Shown: piece by piece, positions 36,728 to 46,323 of the stretch
Layout of the letters: each line of letters begins with the position of its first letter
Position numbering within the stretch: the stretch's first letter is position 1
Source of the DNA: Planktothrix tepida PCC 9214
GTDB taxonomy: Bacteria > Cyanobacteriota > Cyanobacteriia > Cyanobacteriales > Microcoleaceae
Assembly (NCBI RefSeq): GCF_900009145.1
Contig: NZ_LN889796.1
Coordinates: forward strand, 68,204-132,203
Direction of reading: 5' to 3'
DNA length: 64,000 nt
Notes under the pieces: generated by a model
What the model was told of the DNA's origin: nothing
The model's input: the letters and a program-made list of their open reading frames with translations, nothing else
The model's database searches: none
Program-made: the position numbers and the translations under genes

Positions 36728-37555
36728 ATGGAAAATCAACAATTATCCCCATCTAACTTAGACTTTTGGGAAGAAAAACGCAAGAAAGTAGCTTTTTATT
36801 TAGAAGATATTGAAACGCCCCTGGGGAAAACTATAAATTTAACCTTAACGGGAATTATATTAATCTCCTTAGCCAGTTTCATTGCTCAAACCTATCCCCT
36901 TTCTCCCAATGTTCGTTCTCGTTTAGAATTATTAGATTTTATTATTTTAATTTTATTTACTATTGAGTATTTTATTCGATTTTGGGCGGCTGAAAATAAA
37001 AAAAAATTTGTATTAGATCCTTTATCATTAATTGATTTATTGATTATAATACAAGGATCTTTAAGGTTTTTAAATATTAGTTATTTAAGAATTTTTCGTT
37101 GGTTTAGAGTTCTCCGATTAATCCGATTTATTGATGTAAAAATATCTGTTTTCAGAATTCAAACTGAAGATGGGATTATTTTTGCTCGGATTATTTTTAC
37201 GCTATTAACGATTATTTTTATATTTTCTGGCTTGATTTATCAAGTTGAACATCCTGTTAATCCTGAAATCTTTAAAACTTTCTTAGATGCGGTGTATTTT
37301 TCCGTTGTCACCATGACAACTGTAGGTTTTGGAGATGTTACCCCCCTATCAGAAATGGGGCGATTTTTAACCATATTAATGATATTAACCGGAATTGCTT
37401 TAATTCCTTGGCAATTAGGAGATTTAATTAAACAATTAGTTAAAGCATCCAATCATATTGATACGATTTGTGTCGGTTGTGGGTGGTCAGTTCATGATCA
37501 AGATGCCCGTTTTTGTAAACGATGTGGAACTCCCTTAAATCCCTCCAACTCGTAG
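36728..37555 (+). CDS. Voltage-gated-type potassium channel with C-terminal zinc ribbon
   Basis: 275 residues with six membrane segments. S4 (about 119-137) carries repeated Arg (RIFRWFRVLRLIRFID). The pore loop and filter are FSVVTMTTVGFGDVTP (TVGFGD at 198-203), followed by S6 (FLTILMILTGIALIPWQLG). After S6 there is no cyclic-nucleotide or RCK domain; instead a short zinc ribbon with Cys248, Cys251, Cys263 and Cys266 (CVGCGWSVHDQDARFCKRCG). The stop codon TAG is formed by the first bases of the GTAGGGTGCGT repeat. The channel would carry K+ across the plasma or thylakoid membrane; the ribbon's role is unknown. Confidence 0.9.
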   Translation: MENQQLSPSNLDFWEEKRKKVAFYLEDIETPLGKTINLTLTGIILISLASFIAQTYPLSPNVRSRLELLDFIILILFTIEYFIRFWAAENKKKFVLDPLSLIDLLIIIQGSLRFLNISYLRIFRWFRVLRLIRFIDVKISVFRIQTEDGIIFARIIFTLLTIIFIFSGLIYQVEHPVNPEIFKTFLDAVYFSVVTMTTVGFGDVTPLSEMGRFLTILMILTGIALIPWQLGDLIKQLVKASNHIDTICVGCGWSVHDQDARFCKRCGTPLNPSNS

Positions 37556-37637
37556 GGTGCGTAAGGCGAAGCCACACGCACCGATTTTTTATTAATTAAT
37601 AACATTTTGGTGCGTGCGCTCCGCTTACGCACCCTAC
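37552..37637. repeat. Inverted-repeat element, GTAGGGTGCGT family, copy 3 (full length)
   Basis: 86 bp with terminal inverted repeats: GTAGGGTGCGTAAG at the left and CTTACGCACCCTAC at the right, plus inner CACGCACC/GGTGCGTG arms around an AT-rich centre. It looks like a small non-autonomous (MITE-like) or REP-type element. Partial copies are at 12436 and 15689. Its left end forms the stop codon of the channel gene. Confidence 0.8.
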
Positions 37638-37735
37638 AGAAACTATTATCGATAATACTATCCAGTAATACAACATAATTCTGCAAACATGGTATTCTGA
37701 TTGAGAATCCTAATCATCTTAAGAGGAAATAAGCA

Positions 37736-38119
37736 ATGATTCCAGGGGAACTGATTGTTAAACCAGGTGAAATAGAATTGAATGCGGGTCGTCCCACCTT
37801 AAAGGTTAAAGTAGCGAATACCGGCGATCGCCCGATTCAAATTGGATCACATTATCATTTTTATGAAGTTAATGAAGCCTTACAATTTAAACGGGAACAA
37901 ACCAAAGGAATGCGGTTAAATATTCCAGCAGGAACTGCGGTTAGATTTGAACCCGGAGATGAACGGGAAATCGAGTTAGTAACAATAGCCGGAAGTCGAG
38001 AAATTTATGGGTTTAATAAGTTAGTGGAAGGTCAACTCGAAAACATCCCATCAGAACCATCCGATAAAAAATCTAAGAAAGAGAAAGATAAAACCAAAAA
38101 AGGTAAAAAAAAGAAGTAG
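37736..38119 (+). CDS. ureB: Urease subunit beta
   Basis: Structural subunit of nickel urease, which splits urea to ammonia and carbamate. Residues 1-105 match the family: [55 protein letters not shown]. The last ~22 residues are an unusually Lys-rich, low-complexity tail ([17 protein letters not shown]). AGAGGAAATAAG precedes the ATG. No ureA lies upstream, and ureC follows only after an inserted ATPase-DUF4276 pair, so the usual ureABC order is broken here. Confidence 0.94.
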
Positions 38120-38165
38120 AATAGATGAGTTAAACTTTAATAATTGATTGTCTCTGGAAATTTTG

Positions 38166-39347
38166 ATGATGAGATTATTATCGATTGATATTAAAGGGTA
38201 TCGTCCTTTTAAAGACTTTAAAGCTGACTTTAAATCTTTAGAAGTGATTGTAGGTGCTAATGGGGCTGGAAAATCCAGTTTGTTTGAATTTTTGAAATTT
38301 CTCCGAGATGGTATGTATCGAGAGATCCCCACTGAAATTATAGAGGGATCAATCGGTCAACAAATTTTTCATCTGACCGGGCCAGAAAAGTTTACATGGA
38401 ATTTAGAAATTGATACCAATAGACCTGTTTCTATGCTCTATCAAGGTGAACTGGTCGGCCCTGTGGGGAAAACACAAATTACCCATGAAACAGTTGTTTC
38501 CTCTAAACCCTTTGACGATCAATATAAAAACCCTTATATTTTCATGGATATTCGAGGAAATCAAGGGCGAGTTCAAAATCCAGATACGGGGAGGTTTGAC
38601 ACTACAGAAATTGGGCAAGATATTCAATCTAAACGCAATCAATTAGCTTTAAGTACCATCACTAATCCACGTTTAGAATTATTATTTGAATTAAGAGAAT
38701 ATATTCAGAATTGGAGATTTTATAGCTCTTTTAATATTGCTAATCAAAAAATCCGTAAATCAGTGTTAATTGAGCAGGAACCGATTCTTCATGAAGATGC
38801 AGGAAATTTGAGTTCTGTTTTATTTTACTTACAAATGGAACATCAAGAAATTTTTAATGAATTGCAGTTGTTTTTAGGATTAATGATTCCAGGGTTTAAA
38901 AATTTAATGGTAAAAGCGCGAGGTGGCCCTGGCGAGGTCATTGCATTTTGGCAAGAAAAGGGAGTTGATGAAACTATTAGTTTAGCGGATTTATCCGATG
39001 GAATTTTACGTTTGATTTGTTGGGTTTGCCTTTGTTTACATCCTAAACCGCCCAGTTTAATCTGTATTGATGAACCGGATCAAGGGATACATCCTCGGAC
39101 ATTATCGATTTTAGCAGGACTATTTGAGAAAGCATCAGAACGGACTCAAATTTTGTTAGCAACCCATTCTTCCTATTTCCTAAGTCAGTTTGATTTATCT
39201 AAAATTGCCGTGATTCGTAAAGAACAGGGAGAAGCCAAATTTTTTAAACCCTGCGAATTTCCCGTATTAATTGATATGTTAGAAGATTTTGGAGCAGATG
39301 AAATTGAAAAATTGCATCGTTCTGATGAATTGGAGCAATTGATATGA
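38166..39347 (+). CDS. AAA/ABC-type ATPase (RecF/OLD-like), partner of DUF4276 protein
   Basis: About 393 residues of an SMC/RecF-type ATPase: N-terminal strands LLSIDIKGYRPFKDF, Walker A GANGAGKS (30-37), an ABC-like signature DLSDGILRL (about 277), Walker B LICIDEPDQGIHP (about 298-310) and an H-loop LLATHSSYFL. The middle third is helical and poorly conserved. ATG 38166 is chosen; the frame opens at a TTG 18 bases upstream. It overlaps the following DUF4276 gene by 4 bp (ATGA). Such ATPase-TOPRIM pairs occur in OLD- and PARIS-like phage-defence systems, so a defence role is a reasonable inference, but its place within the urease operon is unexpected. Confidence 0.88.
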   Translation: MMRLLSIDIKGYRPFKDFKADFKSLEVIVGANGAGKSSLFEFLKFLRDGMYREIPTEIIEGSIGQQIFHLTGPEKFTWNLEIDTNRPVSMLYQGELVGPVGKTQITHETVVSSKPFDDQYKNPYIFMDIRGNQGRVQNPDTGRFDTTEIGQDIQSKRNQLALSTITNPRLELLFELREYIQNWRFYSSFNIANQKIRKSVLIEQEPILHEDAGNLSSVLFYLQMEHQEIFNELQLFLGLMIPGFKNLMVKARGGPGEVIAFWQEKGVDETISLADLSDGILRLICWVCLCLHPKPPSLICIDEPDQGIHPRTLSILAGLFEKASERTQILLATHSSYFLSQFDLSKIAVIRKEQGEAKFFKPCEFPVLIDMLEDFGADEIEKLHRSDELEQLI

Positions 39348-40030
39348 AGGTAATAGTTTATGTAGAAGGAAAATCAGATAAGTTAGCAATGGAATCCCTG
39401 TTAAAAGATTTAATTGAAAATCAGCAATTTCAAGGAATTACAATTCAATTCTTTGCAGCCAAAGGAAGCGATAATCAAAGAGGCGGAGATGCTAAAAAAG
39501 AATTATTAGAAGTAATTCCTAAAAAAGCAATTAATGTTTTAAAAAATAATCCTGATTCAATTGTTGCCGTTATTCCTGACTTATACCCTCCCAATAAAGG
39601 GTTTCCTCATAAAACTTATCAAGAATTAAAAGCAGGGATAATAGCTAAGTTTAATCAAGAACTAACTCAAAAAGGACTTAATGATCAGCGATTAATAGAA
39701 CGATTTAAGGTTTTTTGCTTTAAATATGACTTAGAGACCTTAGTTTTAGCCTCGGAGACTCAACTTAAAACTCGTCTAGGCTTAAGAAAAGATCAGAACT
39801 TCCCTATTTCTTGGACAATTCCTGTAGAAGATCAAAATCATGATCAGCCACCGAGTAGAATTGTAGAAAGATTATTTAAAGAGTATAATAAAACTTATCA
39901 AAAAACAGTAGATTCAACGTTGATTTTAGGGAAAGCTAATTATCAGGATCTTGCTGAAAGATGTCCTCAATGCTTTAAACCCTTCGTTGAATTCTTAGAA
40001 AACTTATCATTACCCCAGGAAGATTTATGA
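39344..40030 (+). CDS. DUF4276 (TOPRIM-like) protein
   Basis: 228 residues. N-terminal [22 protein letters not shown] matches the TOPRIM-like opening with conserved Glu8; [13 protein letters not shown] is the second acidic strand; the C-terminal part ([35 protein letters not shown]) fits DUF4276. In ATPase-TOPRIM pairs this subunit is the likely nuclease effector released or activated by the ATPase. Its ATG overlaps the ATPase stop and its own stop overlaps the ureC start, each by 4 bp, so translation of all three is coupled. Confidence 0.85.
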
Positions 40031-41745
40031 GTTATAAAATGGATCGGCAGGCTTATGCAGAAACCTTTGGGCCTACGGTGGGCGATCGCATTCGATTAGC
40101 GGATACAGAATTAATCATTGAAGTAGAAAGAGACTATACAACCTATGGAGATGAGGTAAAATTTGGGGGCGGAAAAGTGATTCGAGATGGCATGGGACAG
40201 TCACCCATTACCCGTGAAAATGGTGCAGTTGATTTAGTAATTACTAATGCTTTAATCGTTGATTGGTGGGGCATTGTTAAAGCGGATGTAGGGATAAAAG
40301 ATGGGAAAATTTATAAAATTGGTAAAGCTGGAAATCCCTATATTCAAGATCATATTGATATTATTATCGGCCCTGCAACGGAAGCGATCGCAGGAGAAGG
40401 AATGATCCTCACGGCTGGAGGAATTGATAGCCATATTCACTTTATTTGTCCTCAACAAATCGAGACCGCCATTGCATCAGGAATTACCACGATGATCGGC
40501 GGTGGAACTGGCCCCGCAACGGGAACAAATGCCACCACTTGCACTCCGGGTGCGTGGAATATTTATCGAATGTTAGAAGCGGCGGAAGCCTTTCCCATGA
40601 ATTTAGGATTTTTAGGGAAAGGAAATAGTAGTCAACCCCAAGGTTTAGTTGAACAAATTGTTGCGGGGGCGATGGGTTTAAAACTCCATGAAGATTGGGG
40701 AACTACACCTGCTGCAATTGATACTTGTTTAAATATTGCGGATGAATATGATGTTCAAGTTGCCATTCATACGGATACATTAAACGAAGCAGGATTCGTA
40801 GAAACCACCATTGAAGCGTTTAAAAATCGGGTGATTCATACCTATCATACGGAAGGGGCAGGAGGCGGTCATGCGCCAGATATTATTAAAGTTTGTGGTC
40901 TTGAAAATGTCTTACCTTCTTCTACGAATCCCACTCGTCCCTATACGATGAATACTTTAGAAGAGCATCTGGATATGTTAATGGTTTGCCACCATTTAGA
41001 TCGAAATATTCCAGAGGATGTCGCGTTTGCAGAATCTCGAATCCGTCGAGAAACCATTGCGGCTGAAGATATTTTGCATGATTTAGGGGCATTTAGTATG
41101 ATTTCTTCTGATTCCCAAGCCATGGGACGGGTGGGAGAAAGTATTATTAGAACGTGGCAAACCGCCCATAAAATGAAAGTGCAACGGGGGCTTTTACCTG
41201 AATCTAAAAACTCTCAAGAAACCCATGATAATTTTCGCGTAAAACGCTATATTGCTAAATATACAATTAATCCAGCAATTACTCATGGAATTTCTGATTA
41301 TGTCGGATCAATTGCGGAAGGAAAATTAGCCGATTTATGTTTATGGAAACCCGCTTTTTTTGGGGTTAAACCGGAATTAGTGATTAAAGGGGGGTTAATT
41401 GCTTGGGCGCAAATGGGAGATGCGAATGCAAGTATTCCTACACCCCAACCTGTCCATAGTCGCCCCATGTTTGGAAGTTTTGGAAAAGCGATCGCCTCGA
41501 CATCTTTAACCTTTGTTTCTCAAGCCGCTTTAGACGCTAAAATTCCTGAACAATTGGGGTTACAAAAACAATGCGTAGCGGTTTCAGGAACTCGAAATAT
41601 TAGTAAAGCGGATCTGAAATTAAATAATGCCTTACCGAAAATTGACGTAGATCCTGAAACCTATCAAGTCAAAGCAGACGGGCAATTATTAACCTGTGAA
41701 CCTGCAACTATATTACCGATGGCACAGCGTTATTTCTTATTTTAA
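40027..41745 (+). CDS. ureC: Urease subunit alpha (catalytic)
   Basis: 572 residues, full length. Nickel ligands and catalytic residues are all present: His136 and His138 (SHIHF), Lys219 to be carbamylated (KLHEDWG), His248, His274, the flap Cys321-His322 (CHHLDR) and Asp362 (SDSQAMGR). It hydrolyses urea in the cytoplasm with UreA and UreB. The ATG overlaps the DUF4276 stop (ATGA), so it depends on the cassette for translation coupling. No accessory genes (ureD-G) are in the window. The product should be active if the accessories exist elsewhere. Confidence 0.96.
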
Positions 41746-42236: not shown

Positions 42237-42310
42237 TGACGTTGTAAATCGGGAGAAACCCTTAAAAATAGTCGTTTGAGTTTAAATAGTTTGTTAGAGT
42301 GTTTGCCATT

Positions 42311-42332
42311 ACGAGTCAAATACGAGTCAAAT
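42311..42332. repeat. Tandem 11-bp repeat between att fragment and integrase
   Basis: Two exact copies of ACGAGTCAAAT, directly before the integrase start and about 75 bp from the tRNA fragment. Position and spacing fit arm-type binding sites for the recombinase or an excision factor, but this is inference. Confidence 0.6.
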
Positions 42333-42335
42333 GCC

Positions 42336-43529
42336 ATGTATAACAACTCTCAACGACGCAAGGGTCAAGTCGGAATTACAAGTGATCGGGGACGGTTAAA
42401 GTTATCTCTCCCTAGAGTTCTGTTTGACGGACAGCAAAAATACATTCATCTGCGATGTCCTGACACCCCAGAATATCGGGGTAAAGCTGAAAACGTAGTC
42501 AAACAAATTGAGATAGATGTTGCAAATGGAAGTTTTGATTTTACTTTTAAGAAATATCTGACAATGGTTAATGTTCAACAACCCCAATTAACCGTTATTC
42601 AATCCATTCAGCCTAAACCTGAGTTGTCGCTACAGCAGTGCTGGGACTTATATTTTGACTATAAAAAAACGAGTTGGAAGAAGGGAGAGGACGGGACTAA
42701 ATCAACGATGGATTATATGAAAACGTTGGAAAAATATATTCATAAATGTGGTGTTACTGATTTTGATGCTTTAGCTGTTCGGAAATGGTTTTTAGACAAC
42801 ACCACAGAGTCTATGACTAAGCGGTGTTTAACTCACCTTAACGCTGCGGTGAGGTTTGCAATTAAACATAGAAAGATTAGTTTAGTTAGTAGTCCCTTTG
42901 AGGGAATGCCTCAAGAATTTACCCATCGTTACGAGATTGAATCAGAACCGATGGCGTTATCTTTAGAGGAAAAACAGAAAATATTTGAAGCGTTCCAAAA
43001 CCAAAGAGGCAACTGGAATGGGCGGGGTTATACGGGTTATTCCTATAGTTTTTATTACCCGTTTGTTAAAGGGTTATTCCTCATCGGGAGACGACCGGAA
43101 GAAATTTGTCAGTACCGATGGGGTATGGTGAAATCTGGTCTTTTACACATCCCTGGACGGATTACAAAAACAAGTCGTGATGGCAAGTTCCCACTGTACC
43201 CTGAATTAGAGGAATTATTAAACAGTATTAAACCGGAAAACCCAGACCCTAACGCTTGGCTGTTTCCTAGTCCAAAAGGGTTAAAAATTAGCTATGGAAA
43301 CTTTAGCAATAAAGCCTGGAATAAGGTTGTTGATCCTTTATTCCCAGACCGCAACTTAACGCCCCGGTGTGGACGGGATACCTTTATCACTGAACAGATT
43401 ATTCTACATAATCGCTCTGAGAGTGTTGTTGCTAAATGGTGTGATACATCCCCTGATGAAATCCGAAGACGTTATCTAGGGGATGCTGCAATTTACGAGT
43501 TACGACCTGGATCTTCAGATTCCCATTGA
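42336..43529 (+). CDS. Tyrosine recombinase/integrase
   Basis: About 397 residues. It has an N-terminal DNA-binding region, a SAM-like core-binding domain (residues ~95-185; SLQQCWDLYFDYKKTSWKKG) and a C-terminal catalytic domain. Catalytic candidates: Arg in FLIGRRPEEICQYRW (about 250), Lys in ITKTSRDGKFP, Arg in PRCGRDTF (about 342), Trp in VAKWCD, and Tyr in RRRYLGDA (about 378). The usual His of HxxR is Arg here. It should catalyse integration at the adjacent tRNA-Gly. I start at ATG 42336; the frame also runs back to 42276, into the att region. Confidence 0.92.
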   Translation: MYNNSQRRKGQVGITSDRGRLKLSLPRVLFDGQQKYIHLRCPDTPEYRGKAENVVKQIEIDVANGSFDFTFKKYLTMVNVQQPQLTVIQSIQPKPELSLQQCWDLYFDYKKTSWKKGEDGTKSTMDYMKTLEKYIHKCGVTDFDALAVRKWFLDNTTESMTKRCLTHLNAAVRFAIKHRKISLVSSPFEGMPQEFTHRYEIESEPMALSLEEKQKIFEAFQNQRGNWNGRGYTGYSYSFYYPFVKGLFLIGRRPEEICQYRWGMVKSGLLHIPGRITKTSRDGKFPLYPELEELLNSIKPENPDPNAWLFPSPKGLKISYGNFSNKAWNKVVDPLFPDRNLTPRCGRDTFITEQIILHNRSESVVAKWCDTSPDEIRRRYLGDAAIYELRPGSSDSH

Positions 43530-43657
43530 CGCGCAAGTTCAATCAAGCGATCAGCATATTTTTCAGGAACCCTTATTGCTTTTGTTGGACTTCCCCATTT
43601 ACTTTTTCGACCTTGATGTTTGGAGATCGCTTTATGATTTTGTACAGAATCGTTCAC
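43493..43657 (-). CDS. Small basic protein, possible RHH-type regulator or excisionase
   Basis: 54 residues from a GTG start that overlaps the primase stop by 4 bp (GTGA), so it is the translationally coupled last gene of the leftward operon. The core GRKSKWGSPTKAIRVPEKYADR followed by a helix LIELARQW suggests a beta strand then helices, as in ribbon-helix-helix proteins; I recognise similar short proteins in cyanobacterial mobile DNA but no named family. Its 3' end overlaps the end of the integrase gene antisense by 37 bp, which fits a regulator of integration or excision. Confidence 0.65.
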   Translation of the reverse strand: MNDSVQNHKAISKHQGRKSKWGSPTKAIRVPEKYADRLIELARQWESEDPGRNS

Positions 43658-46323
43658 GGCTGTACCCCCCAAGAATCGTATTCACAGATTTTTTCAAGGG
43701 ATGGATTTTTCTCAAGAGCATCAATGATCAGTTGCGTGAAACTCCCGCCGCCAAAATTCTCGGATTCCATAAGCCAGATGGCTTTTTCTTTATTTCGTTC
43801 TGCAATGGTTTCTTTGATTAAGCGAGTTACGTCTTTAATAGTCGGTAAATGATACTGACCCTCACGAATGTCGTTGAGGGAAACTAAACACCCTCTGTGT
43901 GTTTCCCACATTCCCCTTACTGCTTTTGTTAACTGCTGCGGTTTACCATCAACACCAAAGAGGATGTCGCCAGTTTTAAGCGTATGGAAATCAATAGGCT
44001 GCTGTGAGACTTCTGAGGAAGGAACGCGAACCACATCTACAGGAACGGGCTGTACGGGTTGAGTTTCTACACATTCCGAATTATTCGGAATCGCATTTTT
44101 TGTCGGTTCAAGTTCGGGGGCGACAACGGCGGGAGAACGATACCCCCTTGGTCTACCCTCGGTACTTAAACGGCATCGCTCCCATTTTAATTTTGTCATC
44201 GCCGCTTTAATCTGGGTTTCAACAATTTTGAGGGTTTGGGGATTGTCAACAGCAAACCCCAACTTTTCAACCGCCGCGAGTAATTCCTTGGTAGAAACTT
44301 GGGTTTTATCAACCAAGTAGTCTTCAATCTCTTCCTGTAAGAAGTTACCCGCTTGGAAATTCTCGTTAGCTGTATCGGATTGTTGTTGCTCATCAGAATT
44401 CAGCCACCAGTTTTCCCCAGCTTTGTAGAGTGCAACGGCGGCACCCCAAATGGCATCTCTTTCTTCTCTGAGGAGATTTAGAGGGATGCTTTGAGACACC
44501 GGAATAACCCAGTAACGGCGGCTACCTGTGTTGTCGTAGAGTAATTCTTTGGGGTTTGCCGTGCCAACGATGACGGATTGGCGCTTCATCTTCAAGTTTT
44601 TACGGGCATAGGGGGGACGGATTTGATCTTCACGGGTTGAGAGGAAATTTTTGATGGTTCCCGCCCCTTTCTTAGTCGTAATCCGTTCTAATTCTCCCCA
44701 TTCAATGATCCAGTTTTGGTGAAGTTTTAGCCGTTCATCTTTTTCTTTGAAGTCCCCCATATCGTCACAAAAATAGGTTTCACCGGATAACACTTTAAAA
44801 AAGCTACTCTTAAAAAGTCCCTGGTGATTAGATTGAAGAATTAAGGTGTTTTCCTGTTGACAACCTGGGTCATAGATTCGGGCGACGGCAGCTATAAGAA
44901 ATTTCTTGAAATAAGTTTGATAAATTTCATCAGATACACCGAAGTATCGCTGTGCAATACCGTCCAGAATTTTTGTATCGGAGTGTTTTTGATAGCACGT
45001 TTCTAAATAATCATGAATGGGGTTGTAAGCATTGTCTTTGGCAATTTTAAATATAATCGCCTCAAGTTGGCTACTTCCTATTCTCCTACCCCCAACTTTT
45101 AGCTCTAAACCAAGTTCTAGGGCTAGTTCTAATTCAAGGCATTCCAAGTCTAACTCGTTACCATCAAGCTCAATATTATTGTTCATCAAGTTAAGTCTAA
45201 TTCTATCGCCTATAATGTCTTGTGCCTTCTCAAATGCCTTGATTAAAGCAGGTTTCTTAAGATATTGCGGTTCTGTTCCGTTGTCATTACTGCCATTACT
45301 GCCATTACTGTTGTTATTAACTATGTGGGGATAGAATTTAGTGCCGTTATCGTTGCCGTTACTGTTACGTTTCCAGGCTTTGATACAGTTTTTTATGGCA
45401 TCAGAAGGTAAAGAAGCTGTAGGGCTATCTGCCTTTTCTCCAAATTTCCAAAGGTTTTCTCTCTCTTTACCAGAAAGGGGAGGATTGCAGCGATCGCAAA
45501 AATCATCATACAGTTGTCGTGCCGTTCCACTAAACCGAATATCTGAATTTCTTAGATAGGTTTCACACCCAATTAATCCTAAAACTAATTTCTTAGCGGT
45601 TTCGTTTCGGGTTCCTTGATTCGCTCCGTGATCAATCAAATCTCGCTCGTTTAAACTGAGGCATTGATAAAGGGGGATTTCATCATAAAATTCAGTCGTA
45701 AAACTGGGGGATACTGGTTCCTCTAAAGTTTTTTCAATGGGGCTCGGTTTCGTTTTCTCTACGACTAACATTTGCTCAATCACCCAATTTGGTGCTTGAG
45801 CAATGGCTGTATTTTCTATTGAGTTAATCCATTTGTAAATTTTAGTTTCTGGGTGAACACTGGGAGGTAAAACCGACTGACAACCATTCCAACGTAGTTC
45901 TAATAAAACCTCTTTACCGTTACCCCCAATTTCTCCGGTATTCAGTTTTTTAGTAGTGATTGCATCCCAGTATTCTGAGGGGATTTGATAAAGGTATTGA
46001 GCGCGACCTTCAAGCCCACTGGAGAAACTGACGGTGTGGGGTAAACCGCCTAAATTTTTAGCAAAATCGTGGGCTGCTTTTCCATCACAATCTACGGCTA
46101 CAATTCCTCCGTTAATTTTCCCAGTTAGTAGCCCATATCCTTTTGCTTTTCCTGATTTAATCTCTTTGACTAAAAGGGGACTATCTGGAAAAAAACCGCT
46201 TTTAGTCCAATCTTTTTGATATGGCTGTTTATTGCCATTAACGGGGCATAAACAAAAATTGTGGGGTAATATTGTTAGCCCATCAATTAATAAGTCAATT
46301 AAGCTTGTTTTTGTAGAGGTCAT
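43654..46323 (-). CDS. Primase-polymerase / VirE-type ATPase replication protein
   Basis: 889 residues. Residues ~15-190 are an archaeo-eukaryotic-like prim-pol domain (bifunctional DNA primase/polymerase): LLTGKINGGIVAVDCDG with Asp78 and Asp80, and LLELRWNGCQSVLPPSVHP. A helical middle with Asn-rich low complexity (near 325-350) follows. Residues ~450-680 are a VirE/D5-like SF3-related ATPase: a degenerate Walker A QGLFKSSFFKVLSG (about 495), Walker B IIEWGELERI, then SVIVGTANPKELL and GSRRYWVIPV. It should prime and unwind the element's DNA. Residues after ~700 are a helical/winged region. Upstream DUF3102-like and ASCH genes are in the same operon. Confidence 0.88.
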   Translation of the reverse strand: MTSTKTSLIDLLIDGLTILPHNFCLCPVNGNKQPYQKDWTKSGFFPDSPLLVKEIKSGKAKGYGLLTGKINGGIVAVDCDGKAAHDFAKNLGGLPHTVSFSSGLEGRAQYLYQIPSEYWDAITTKKLNTGEIGGNGKEVLLELRWNGCQSVLPPSVHPETKIYKWINSIENTAIAQAPNWVIEQMLVVEKTKPSPIEKTLEEPVSPSFTTEFYDEIPLYQCLSLNERDLIDHGANQGTRNETAKKLVLGLIGCETYLRNSDIRFSGTARQLYDDFCDRCNPPLSGKERENLWKFGEKADSPTASLPSDAIKNCIKAWKRNSNGNDNGTKFYPHIVNNNSNGSNGSNDNGTEPQYLKKPALIKAFEKAQDIIGDRIRLNLMNNNIELDGNELDLECLELELALELGLELKVGGRRIGSSQLEAIIFKIAKDNAYNPIHDYLETCYQKHSDTKILDGIAQRYFGVSDEIYQTYFKKFLIAAVARIYDPGCQQENTLILQSNHQGLFKSSFFKVLSGETYFCDDMGDFKEKDERLKLHQNWIIEWGELERITTKKGAGTIKNFLSTREDQIRPPYARKNLKMKRQSVIVGTANPKELLYDNTGSRRYWVIPVSQSIPLNLLREERDAIWGAAVALYKAGENWWLNSDEQQQSDTANENFQAGNFLQEEIEDYLVDKTQVSTKELLAAVEKLGFAVDNPQTLKIVETQIKAAMTKLKWERCRLSTEGRPRGYRSPAVVAPELEPTKNAIPNNSECVETQPVQPVPVDVVRVPSSEVSQQPIDFHTLKTGDILFGVDGKPQQLTKAVRGMWETHRGCLVSLNDIREGQYHLPTIKDVTRLIKETIAERNKEKAIWLMESENFGGGSFTQLIIDALEKNPSLEKICEYDSWGVQP
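44073..44100 (+). terminator. Hairpin with T-run inside the primase gene, reading antisense
   Basis: Palindrome ATTCCGAATTATTCGGAAT followed by gc and ATTTTTT on the plus strand. It lies in the primase coding region and would stop plus-strand transcripts running on from the integrase. The 22 bases beginning here recur exactly at 54490-54511 as the terminator of the small membrane-protein operon. Confidence 0.55.

Follow-up and report, generated by a model that had tools for sequence, protein, structure and literature searches.

In the window, a 64,000-nucleotide stretch of contig NZ_LN889796.1 from Planktothrix tepida PCC 9214, the urease genes ureB and ureC flank a gene for an OLD/AriA/PtuA-like ATPase and a gene for a DUF4276 protein, all four being read in one direction on the + strand with open frames. 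We consider it reasonably probable that this pair is a HEC-01-type two-gene immune cassette of the abortive-infection type, carried within the operon and exchanged via its urease flanks. HEC-01 (Hma-embedded candidate 1) is a candidate defence system in PADLOC which, like the window pair, combines a HEC-01A ATPase with an adjacent DUF4276-type HEC-01B protein. The defence activity of the pair is putative, and is suggested by the predicted fold, the PADLOC matches and the BREX neighbourhood of one homologue.

The ATPase–DUF4276 pair and known defence systems

A sequence-only reading of this DNA had described four co-directional genes, two ATGA overlaps and an ATPase with complete Walker A, signature and Walker B motifs, all of which was borne out (Table 1), and the motifs are kept in 30 homologues. 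The H-loop His is also present and kept across this alignment (30 rows, without L110 and L111–L114). Candidate ATPase starts (TTG or ATG) lie at 38148, 38166 and 38169, the likely one being ATG at 38166 or 38169 rather than TTG at 38148. In PADLOC, the top match of the ATPase was HEC-01A (PDLC04175, 2e-57, 192.9 bits, residues 9–386) and that of the DUF4276 protein was HEC-01B (PDLC04188, 3.5e-15, 54.3 bits, residues 2–221). The TOPRIM likeness of the DUF4276 protein, also proposed from sequence, is weak at that level (OLD-like_TOPRIM, 14.8 bits, under the cut-off of 23.2) but clear by predicted fold; the modelled structure is an OLD-type TOPRIM domain (predicted local distance difference test score 90), and its top seven structural matches were OLD, PARIS and GajA chains. 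Residues E8, D12, D79 and E131 are retained and resemble the ligands of BpOLD.

The kinship to OLD and PARIS systems suggested by the sequence-only reading was upheld in so far as profile searches and structure prediction placed both proteins near ATPase–TOPRIM families; the HEC-01 models fit better than those of PARIS. AriA profiles scored the window ATPase lower than HEC-01A did (1.2e-29 versus 2e-57), and for the DUF4276 protein the PADLOC matches up to E 1 were HEC-01B and PDC-M38B only, with no AriB profile among them, the likeness to AriB being one of fold alone. OLD nucleases and Gabija GajA have the ATPase and TOPRIM fold in common with the pair. In OLD classes 1–3, however, the two form one polypeptide, whereas the window pair comprises two open reading frames (ORFs); unlike OLD and GajA, the window DUF4276 protein does not retain the second Asp of the DxD motif, and no further gene stands between the pair and ureC in the window. 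According to the available part of PMC12988326, Hma-embedded candidates were found embedded in defence systems, whereas the present pair lies within urease and other housekeeping clusters; antiviral activity is reported there for several such candidates and is not stated, in that part, for HEC-01.

The model for the proposed mechanism is PARIS, in which a phage protein is detected by AriA and tRNA is cut by AriB (as described in the available parts of PMC12839542 and PMC12409363). For the window pair we infer the sensing, target, abortive outcome, co-transcription and exchange route as follows. The ATPase would sense infection and hold or recruit the separate TOPRIM-fold DUF4276 protein, which on activation would cut nucleic acid, either DNA (like OLD and Gabija) or tRNA (like AriB), and so halt the infected cell. 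The pair would be read from the urease transcript, probably without a promoter of its own. Conserved urease genes would frame a slot in which it is kept and exchanged as cargo, the likeliest route being homologous recombination through the flanking ureB and ureC, or through ureA and ureB.

Table 1. Coordinates of the urease genes, the ATPase–DUF4276 pair and their motifs in the window
Feature	Position	Strand	Evidence
ureB, urease beta subunit, lysine-rich C-terminal tail	37736..38119	+	TIGR00192 165.1 bits (cut-off 90), PF00699 156.6 bits
ABC ATPase, OLD/AriA/PtuA-like, HEC-01A-like	38148..39347	+	AAA_21 107 bits (cut-off 27)
Walker A, GANGAGKS	38253..38276	+	Sequence; conserved in 30-homologue alignment
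ABC signature stretch, LADLSDGILR (LSDG)	38982..39011	+	Sequence; conserved in 30-homologue alignment
Walker B, LICIDEP	39057..39077	+	Sequence; conserved in 30-homologue alignment
ATGA, ATPase stop overlapping DUF4276 start	39344..39347	+	Sequence
DUF4276 protein, HEC-01B-like, predicted OLD-type TOPRIM fold, putative effector nuclease	39344..40030	+	PF14103 63.8 bits (cut-off 30.2)
E8 to D12, putative metal ligands, first TOPRIM motif	39365..39379	+	E8, D12 invariant in 31 sequences
D79-L-Y81, DxD position, second Asp replaced by Tyr	39578..39586	+	Invariant in 31 sequences
AGGA, Shine-Dalgarno-like, in DUF4276 3' end, 6 nt from ureC ATG	40017..40020	+	Sequence
ATGA, DUF4276 stop overlapping ureC start	40027..40030	+	Sequence; same in G002, G008
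ureC, urease alpha subunit, frame whole	40027..41745	+	TIGR01792 990 bits (cut-off 680)

Recurrence and probable exchange at the urease junctions

Among 98 related genomes, ureC was present in 90 and the DUF4276 protein in only 10, directly upstream of ureC in every case (in G010 the contig ends at the pair, and ureB is on another contig). Within the window's genus the pair occurs in three of ten genomes, the other seven having a ureB–ureC spacer of 78–80 bp. The four-gene order is thus not universal, and the sequence-only proposal of a defence-type ATPase with a TOPRIM-fold partner inside a housekeeping operon gained from this distribution as well as from the HEC-01 matches and the fold. Two further sets, both samples, were surveyed: the protein was found in 10 of 386 genomes across the phylum, ureB-adjacent in all 10, and in the family of G139 (Nostocales type) 9 of 118 genomes had the pair, each time between ureA and ureB. 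A scan of a genome contig collection, which reaches close relatives only because it was built on two short peptide patterns, returned 35 loci (18 cyanobacterial and 17 non-cyanobacterial); 17 of the 18 lie beside urease genes, the exception being that of Cyanaurora (L112). With duplicates removed, the subfamily was found in 27 cyanobacterial genomes, 26 of them urease-adjacent: 11 copies immediately precede ureC (at one of these, L090, no ureB is in view) and 15 immediately precede ureB, with ureA seen upstream in 14 and G315 checked on the ureB side only. The single capture envisaged by the sequence-only reading does not match this adjacency at two junctions. In Nostocales the order is ureD-ureA-ATPase-DUF4276-ureB, mostly followed by ureC; L092 has genes between ureD and ureA, L093 and L094 have genes between ureB and ureC, and L084 is without ureC. 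The arrangement is more than chance, since the ureB-pair-ureC order recurs in relatives and the ratio of nonsynonymous to synonymous divergence (dN/dS) is below 1 in both genes.

The ureB–ureC junction is an exchangeable slot in the window's family, f1. Counting genomes with both genes in line on one contig, gaps of at least 900 bp were found at ureB–ureC in 27 of 43 f1 genomes, against 0 of 43 at ureA–ureB and 2 of 52 at kaiB–kaiC, the only two control junctions; across all 98 relatives the figures were 32/59, 3/70 and 2/90, respectively, these being counts of related genomes and not of independent events. Cargo at the f1 junction comprises the pair, a GT61 glycosyltransferase, a 336-amino acid nuclease-like protein (PDC-S11 at 1.4e-66; Pfam NucS_C under cut-off), Coq4 and urease accessory genes, and cargo outside f1 includes cupin/DUF1349 and PD-(D/E)XK proteins. 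Examples of alternative cargo are L050, L058 and L061, with GT61 or the PDC-S11-like nuclease; G048 has two similar GT61 ORFs. When the ureC tree of the 43 f1 genomes was labelled by cargo, at least 14 state changes were required, and the pair changed 7 times. The ureC tree was built without L084, which has no ureC at the locus, and L088, L090 and L093 (outside f1) were pruned for the count. Among 100 countable ureA–ureB gaps of the Nostocales-type family (118 genomes), 18 reached at least 900 bp, 9 holding the pair, 2 the ATPase without a whole DUF4276 gene (G243, G151) and 7 other genes. Chromosomal hotspots between core genes, described in the available part of PMC5635113 as diversifying through rapid gene turnover, likewise have conserved flanks and changing cargo; unlike them, the urease slot lies between two subunit genes of one enzyme, and its cargo is often one or two co-directional genes.

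A FastTree phylogeny of both proteins (leaving out L111, L113 and duplicate genomes) united the urease-linked copies in a single clade (support 0.997), with Cyanaurora as sister (0.811), and the Nostocales copies formed a clade of their own (1.000). The pair may have entered the urease cluster once and then moved to the other junction, or it may have entered twice. A simple gene shift was not seen, as the ureA–ureB spacing stays at ~37 bp in most Microcoleus-type genomes regardless of cargo. For the three pair-bearing genomes of the window's genus, synonymous divergence (dS, Nei–Gojobori) was 0.12–0.15 in the ATPase, 0.22–0.41 in ureC and 0.20–0.39 in ureB, and in the DUF4276 gene blocks of 0.05 alternated with 1.47. 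The dN/dS values of this trio were 0.21–0.26 (ATPase), 0.21–0.35 (DUF4276) and 0.04–0.06 (ureC), and five Microcoleus-type comparisons gave 0.13–0.20 for the ATPase and 0.24–0.72 for DUF4276. This pattern fits transfer of the cassette after divergence of its flanks and an effector gene that recombines internally and is less tightly constrained. In four cyanobacterial genomes (G243, G151, G232, G027) the DUF4276 gene is lost, broken or shortened beside an ATPase that gives one long match, and a damaged ATPase beside DUF4276 was found in none of 24 comparable urease-linked loci (single tblastn matches of at least 385 residues). At L143 (G243) and L146 (G151) a whole ATPase gene stands at ureA–ureB, DUF4276 being absent or a 77-amino acid remnant. 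In G027 (L048) the truncated DUF4276 gene is separated from ureC by an opposite-strand PIN-domain gene with a small partner, next to which stands a second copy of an N-terminal piece of ureC.

The 4-base ATPase/DUF4276 overlap recurs in Microcoleus-type and Nostocales copies (e.g. L043 and L084). The overlap with ureC, from which translational coupling to urease had been proposed, is real in the window and in the two other pair-bearing genomes of its genus but is not general, the distance being ~73 bp in five Microcoleus-type loci (L043–L047). A tie of the pair's expression to nitrogen supply, or an addiction-like use of urease, both suggested by the sequence-only reading, would be putative. 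An AAGGAG-type site precedes ureC in all six pairless genomes of the genus that were read, out of seven; in the pair-bearing genomes this leader is gone, and the DUF4276 protein ends about seven residues past the Nostocales end. Among the loci examined, this replacement of the ureC leader by an overlap is specific to the window's genus.

None of the 17 non-cyanobacterial loci had a ureB or ureC match up to 6 kb per side. At L101 (a KSB1 bacterium) the pair shares 4 bases with BREX-1 pglX (901 bits, cut-off 500), and genes for Schlafen AlbA_2, AbiEi and PglZ come after it. Elsewhere it lies between nuoF and nuoG with a GxxExxY-like gene before nuoG (L109), between nuoN and hrcA (L098), between carB and purF (L110) and ahead of adk (L104). 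These four were named for their recognisable neighbours and the other loci are annotated partly at most, so they give no rate for housekeeping homes.

Alternative explanations and wider meaning

Several observations weigh against an exchangeable immune cassette. The HEC-01B score is modest, and the PADLOC models carry no curated cut-offs here. Tyr81 replaces the second Asp of the DxD motif in 31 of 31 DUF4276 sequences (an alignment without L111–L114), E8 and D79, the first Asp, being invariant; single substitutions in BpOLD, D457A among them, did not discernibly affect cleavage according to the available part of PMC6755086. The GT61, Coq4, cupin/DUF1349 and urease accessory genes in the slot are non-defence, GT61 having no PADLOC match at E 0.01, and with much of the cargo of this kind the slot by itself is no proof of defence. 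Cargo follows the ureC tree better than in 500 shuffles of the labels (mean 24.3 changes, minimum 18, versus 14 observed), so part of the cargo pattern is plain descent. The copies of the window's genus and the Microcoleus-type copies were grouped at a support of only 0.041, and no integrase or repeat tied to the cassette was found. Outside the urease-linked clade the ATPase is damaged beside DUF4276 in L110 (shortened) and in Cyanaurora (L112), whose pair also lies away from urease, and DUF4276 is split into two pieces in L111 and L113. Only 1 of 17 non-cyanobacterial loci (L101) lies among defence genes, the rest being annotated partly or not at all, and a promoter scan remained at background level, so that the lack of a promoter of its own is not demonstrated.

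The strict urease link within cyanobacteria (26 of 27 genomes, two junctions, one clade at 0.997) also raises a possible urease-related role, in which the pair would have been recruited there to assemble, regulate or process something urease-linked, its place in the operon reflecting that role. We regard this as quite unlikely: ureC occurs in 90 of 98 relatives versus 10 with the pair, within the genus seven of ten genomes carry ureB and ureC but not the pair, the 17 non-cyanobacterial loci are without a urease match over the span searched, the slot takes unrelated genes, and one relative lies among BREX genes. A single insertion in an Oscillatoriales/Nostocales ancestor, followed by one shift of position, vertical descent and many losses, would make the place a matter of history and not of selection or exchange. 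It would account for the single urease-linked clade, in which Nostocales stand apart (1.000) much as they do in the ureC tree, and for a cargo–ureC congruence that beats the shuffles. However, ATPase dS lies below ureC dS for the same genome pairs, genomes with the pair, GT61, the nuclease or an empty slot are intermingled on the tree where ureC sequences differ little (many nodes being weak), and the constant ~37 bp ureA–ureB spacing of most Microcoleus-type genomes shows no simple shift; we judge this history unlikely. Finally, the pair could be a passenger or an addiction module, in which a toxin-like nuclease and its ATPase keeper stabilise themselves in a useful operon without anti-phage benefit. 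The PIN-domain gene and partner in G027 would suit this, as would the four genomes whose ATPase stands beside a missing or broken effector, and in the window's genus DUF4276 overlaps the ureC start, which any deletion would need to leave intact. This is nevertheless very unlikely, as a whole ATPase without effector is not predicted by a pure addiction pair, the pair is absent from 7 of 10 genomes of the genus, and the BREX-embedded homologue and HEC-01 matches point to defence.

If the pair is indeed an immune cassette, the near-universal urease adjacency of its cyanobacterial relatives suggests that such systems can ride in operons of everyday metabolism. More broadly, and only tentatively, this HEC-01 subfamily may be operon-borne by habit: inserted co-directionally between core-enzyme genes (urease at two junctions, Nuo, carB-purF), it would use their transcript, would in one genus provide the ribosome-binding site for the gene that follows, and would be swapped with other cargo by flank recombination. 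The cyanobacterial urease cluster would then act as a dock for cassettes that are exchangeable and in part defensive. Searches for defence genes usually target islands, prophages and plasmids; if core metabolic operons are home to immune pairs, searches based on islands will overlook them, and both the expression and the loss of such pairs are bound up with the metabolism of the host. The urease junctions offer ready natural presence/absence and swap pairs among close cyanobacteria, and the idea is testable with existing strains and genomes.

Urease genes and neighbouring sequence

The window copy of ureC is 98% identical to that of G002 and 95% to that of G008. As the sequence-only reading had noted, ureA is not adjacent; it lies on a different contig (G000:C26) of the 6.78-Mb window genome (G000), and in 10 of 10 genomes of the genus ureA and ureB are on separate contigs or megabases apart. 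Cyanobacterial urease genes are often scattered, according to the available part of PMC6737895. UreB of the window's genus has 127 amino acids with a lysine-rich tail (window 38050–38116), most Nostocales ureB ORFs that were read having 101–104, and in ureC of L044, L048 and other Microcoleus-type genomes an insertion that varies in length but keeps the frame lies near window residue 392–398. Just 5' of ureB (37550–37640), an inverted repeat was seen by eye, GTAGGGTGCGTAAGGCGAAGCC and its near complement, resembling a small mobile repeat. Of ten more ORFs, reaching as far as 62290, two had weak Pfam matches under the threshold and eight had none. Directly 3' of ureC, an Arm-DNA-binding integrase-like gene (42276–43529) and, on the opposite strand, a gene for a primase/VapE-like protein (43654–46323) probably form an integrated element.

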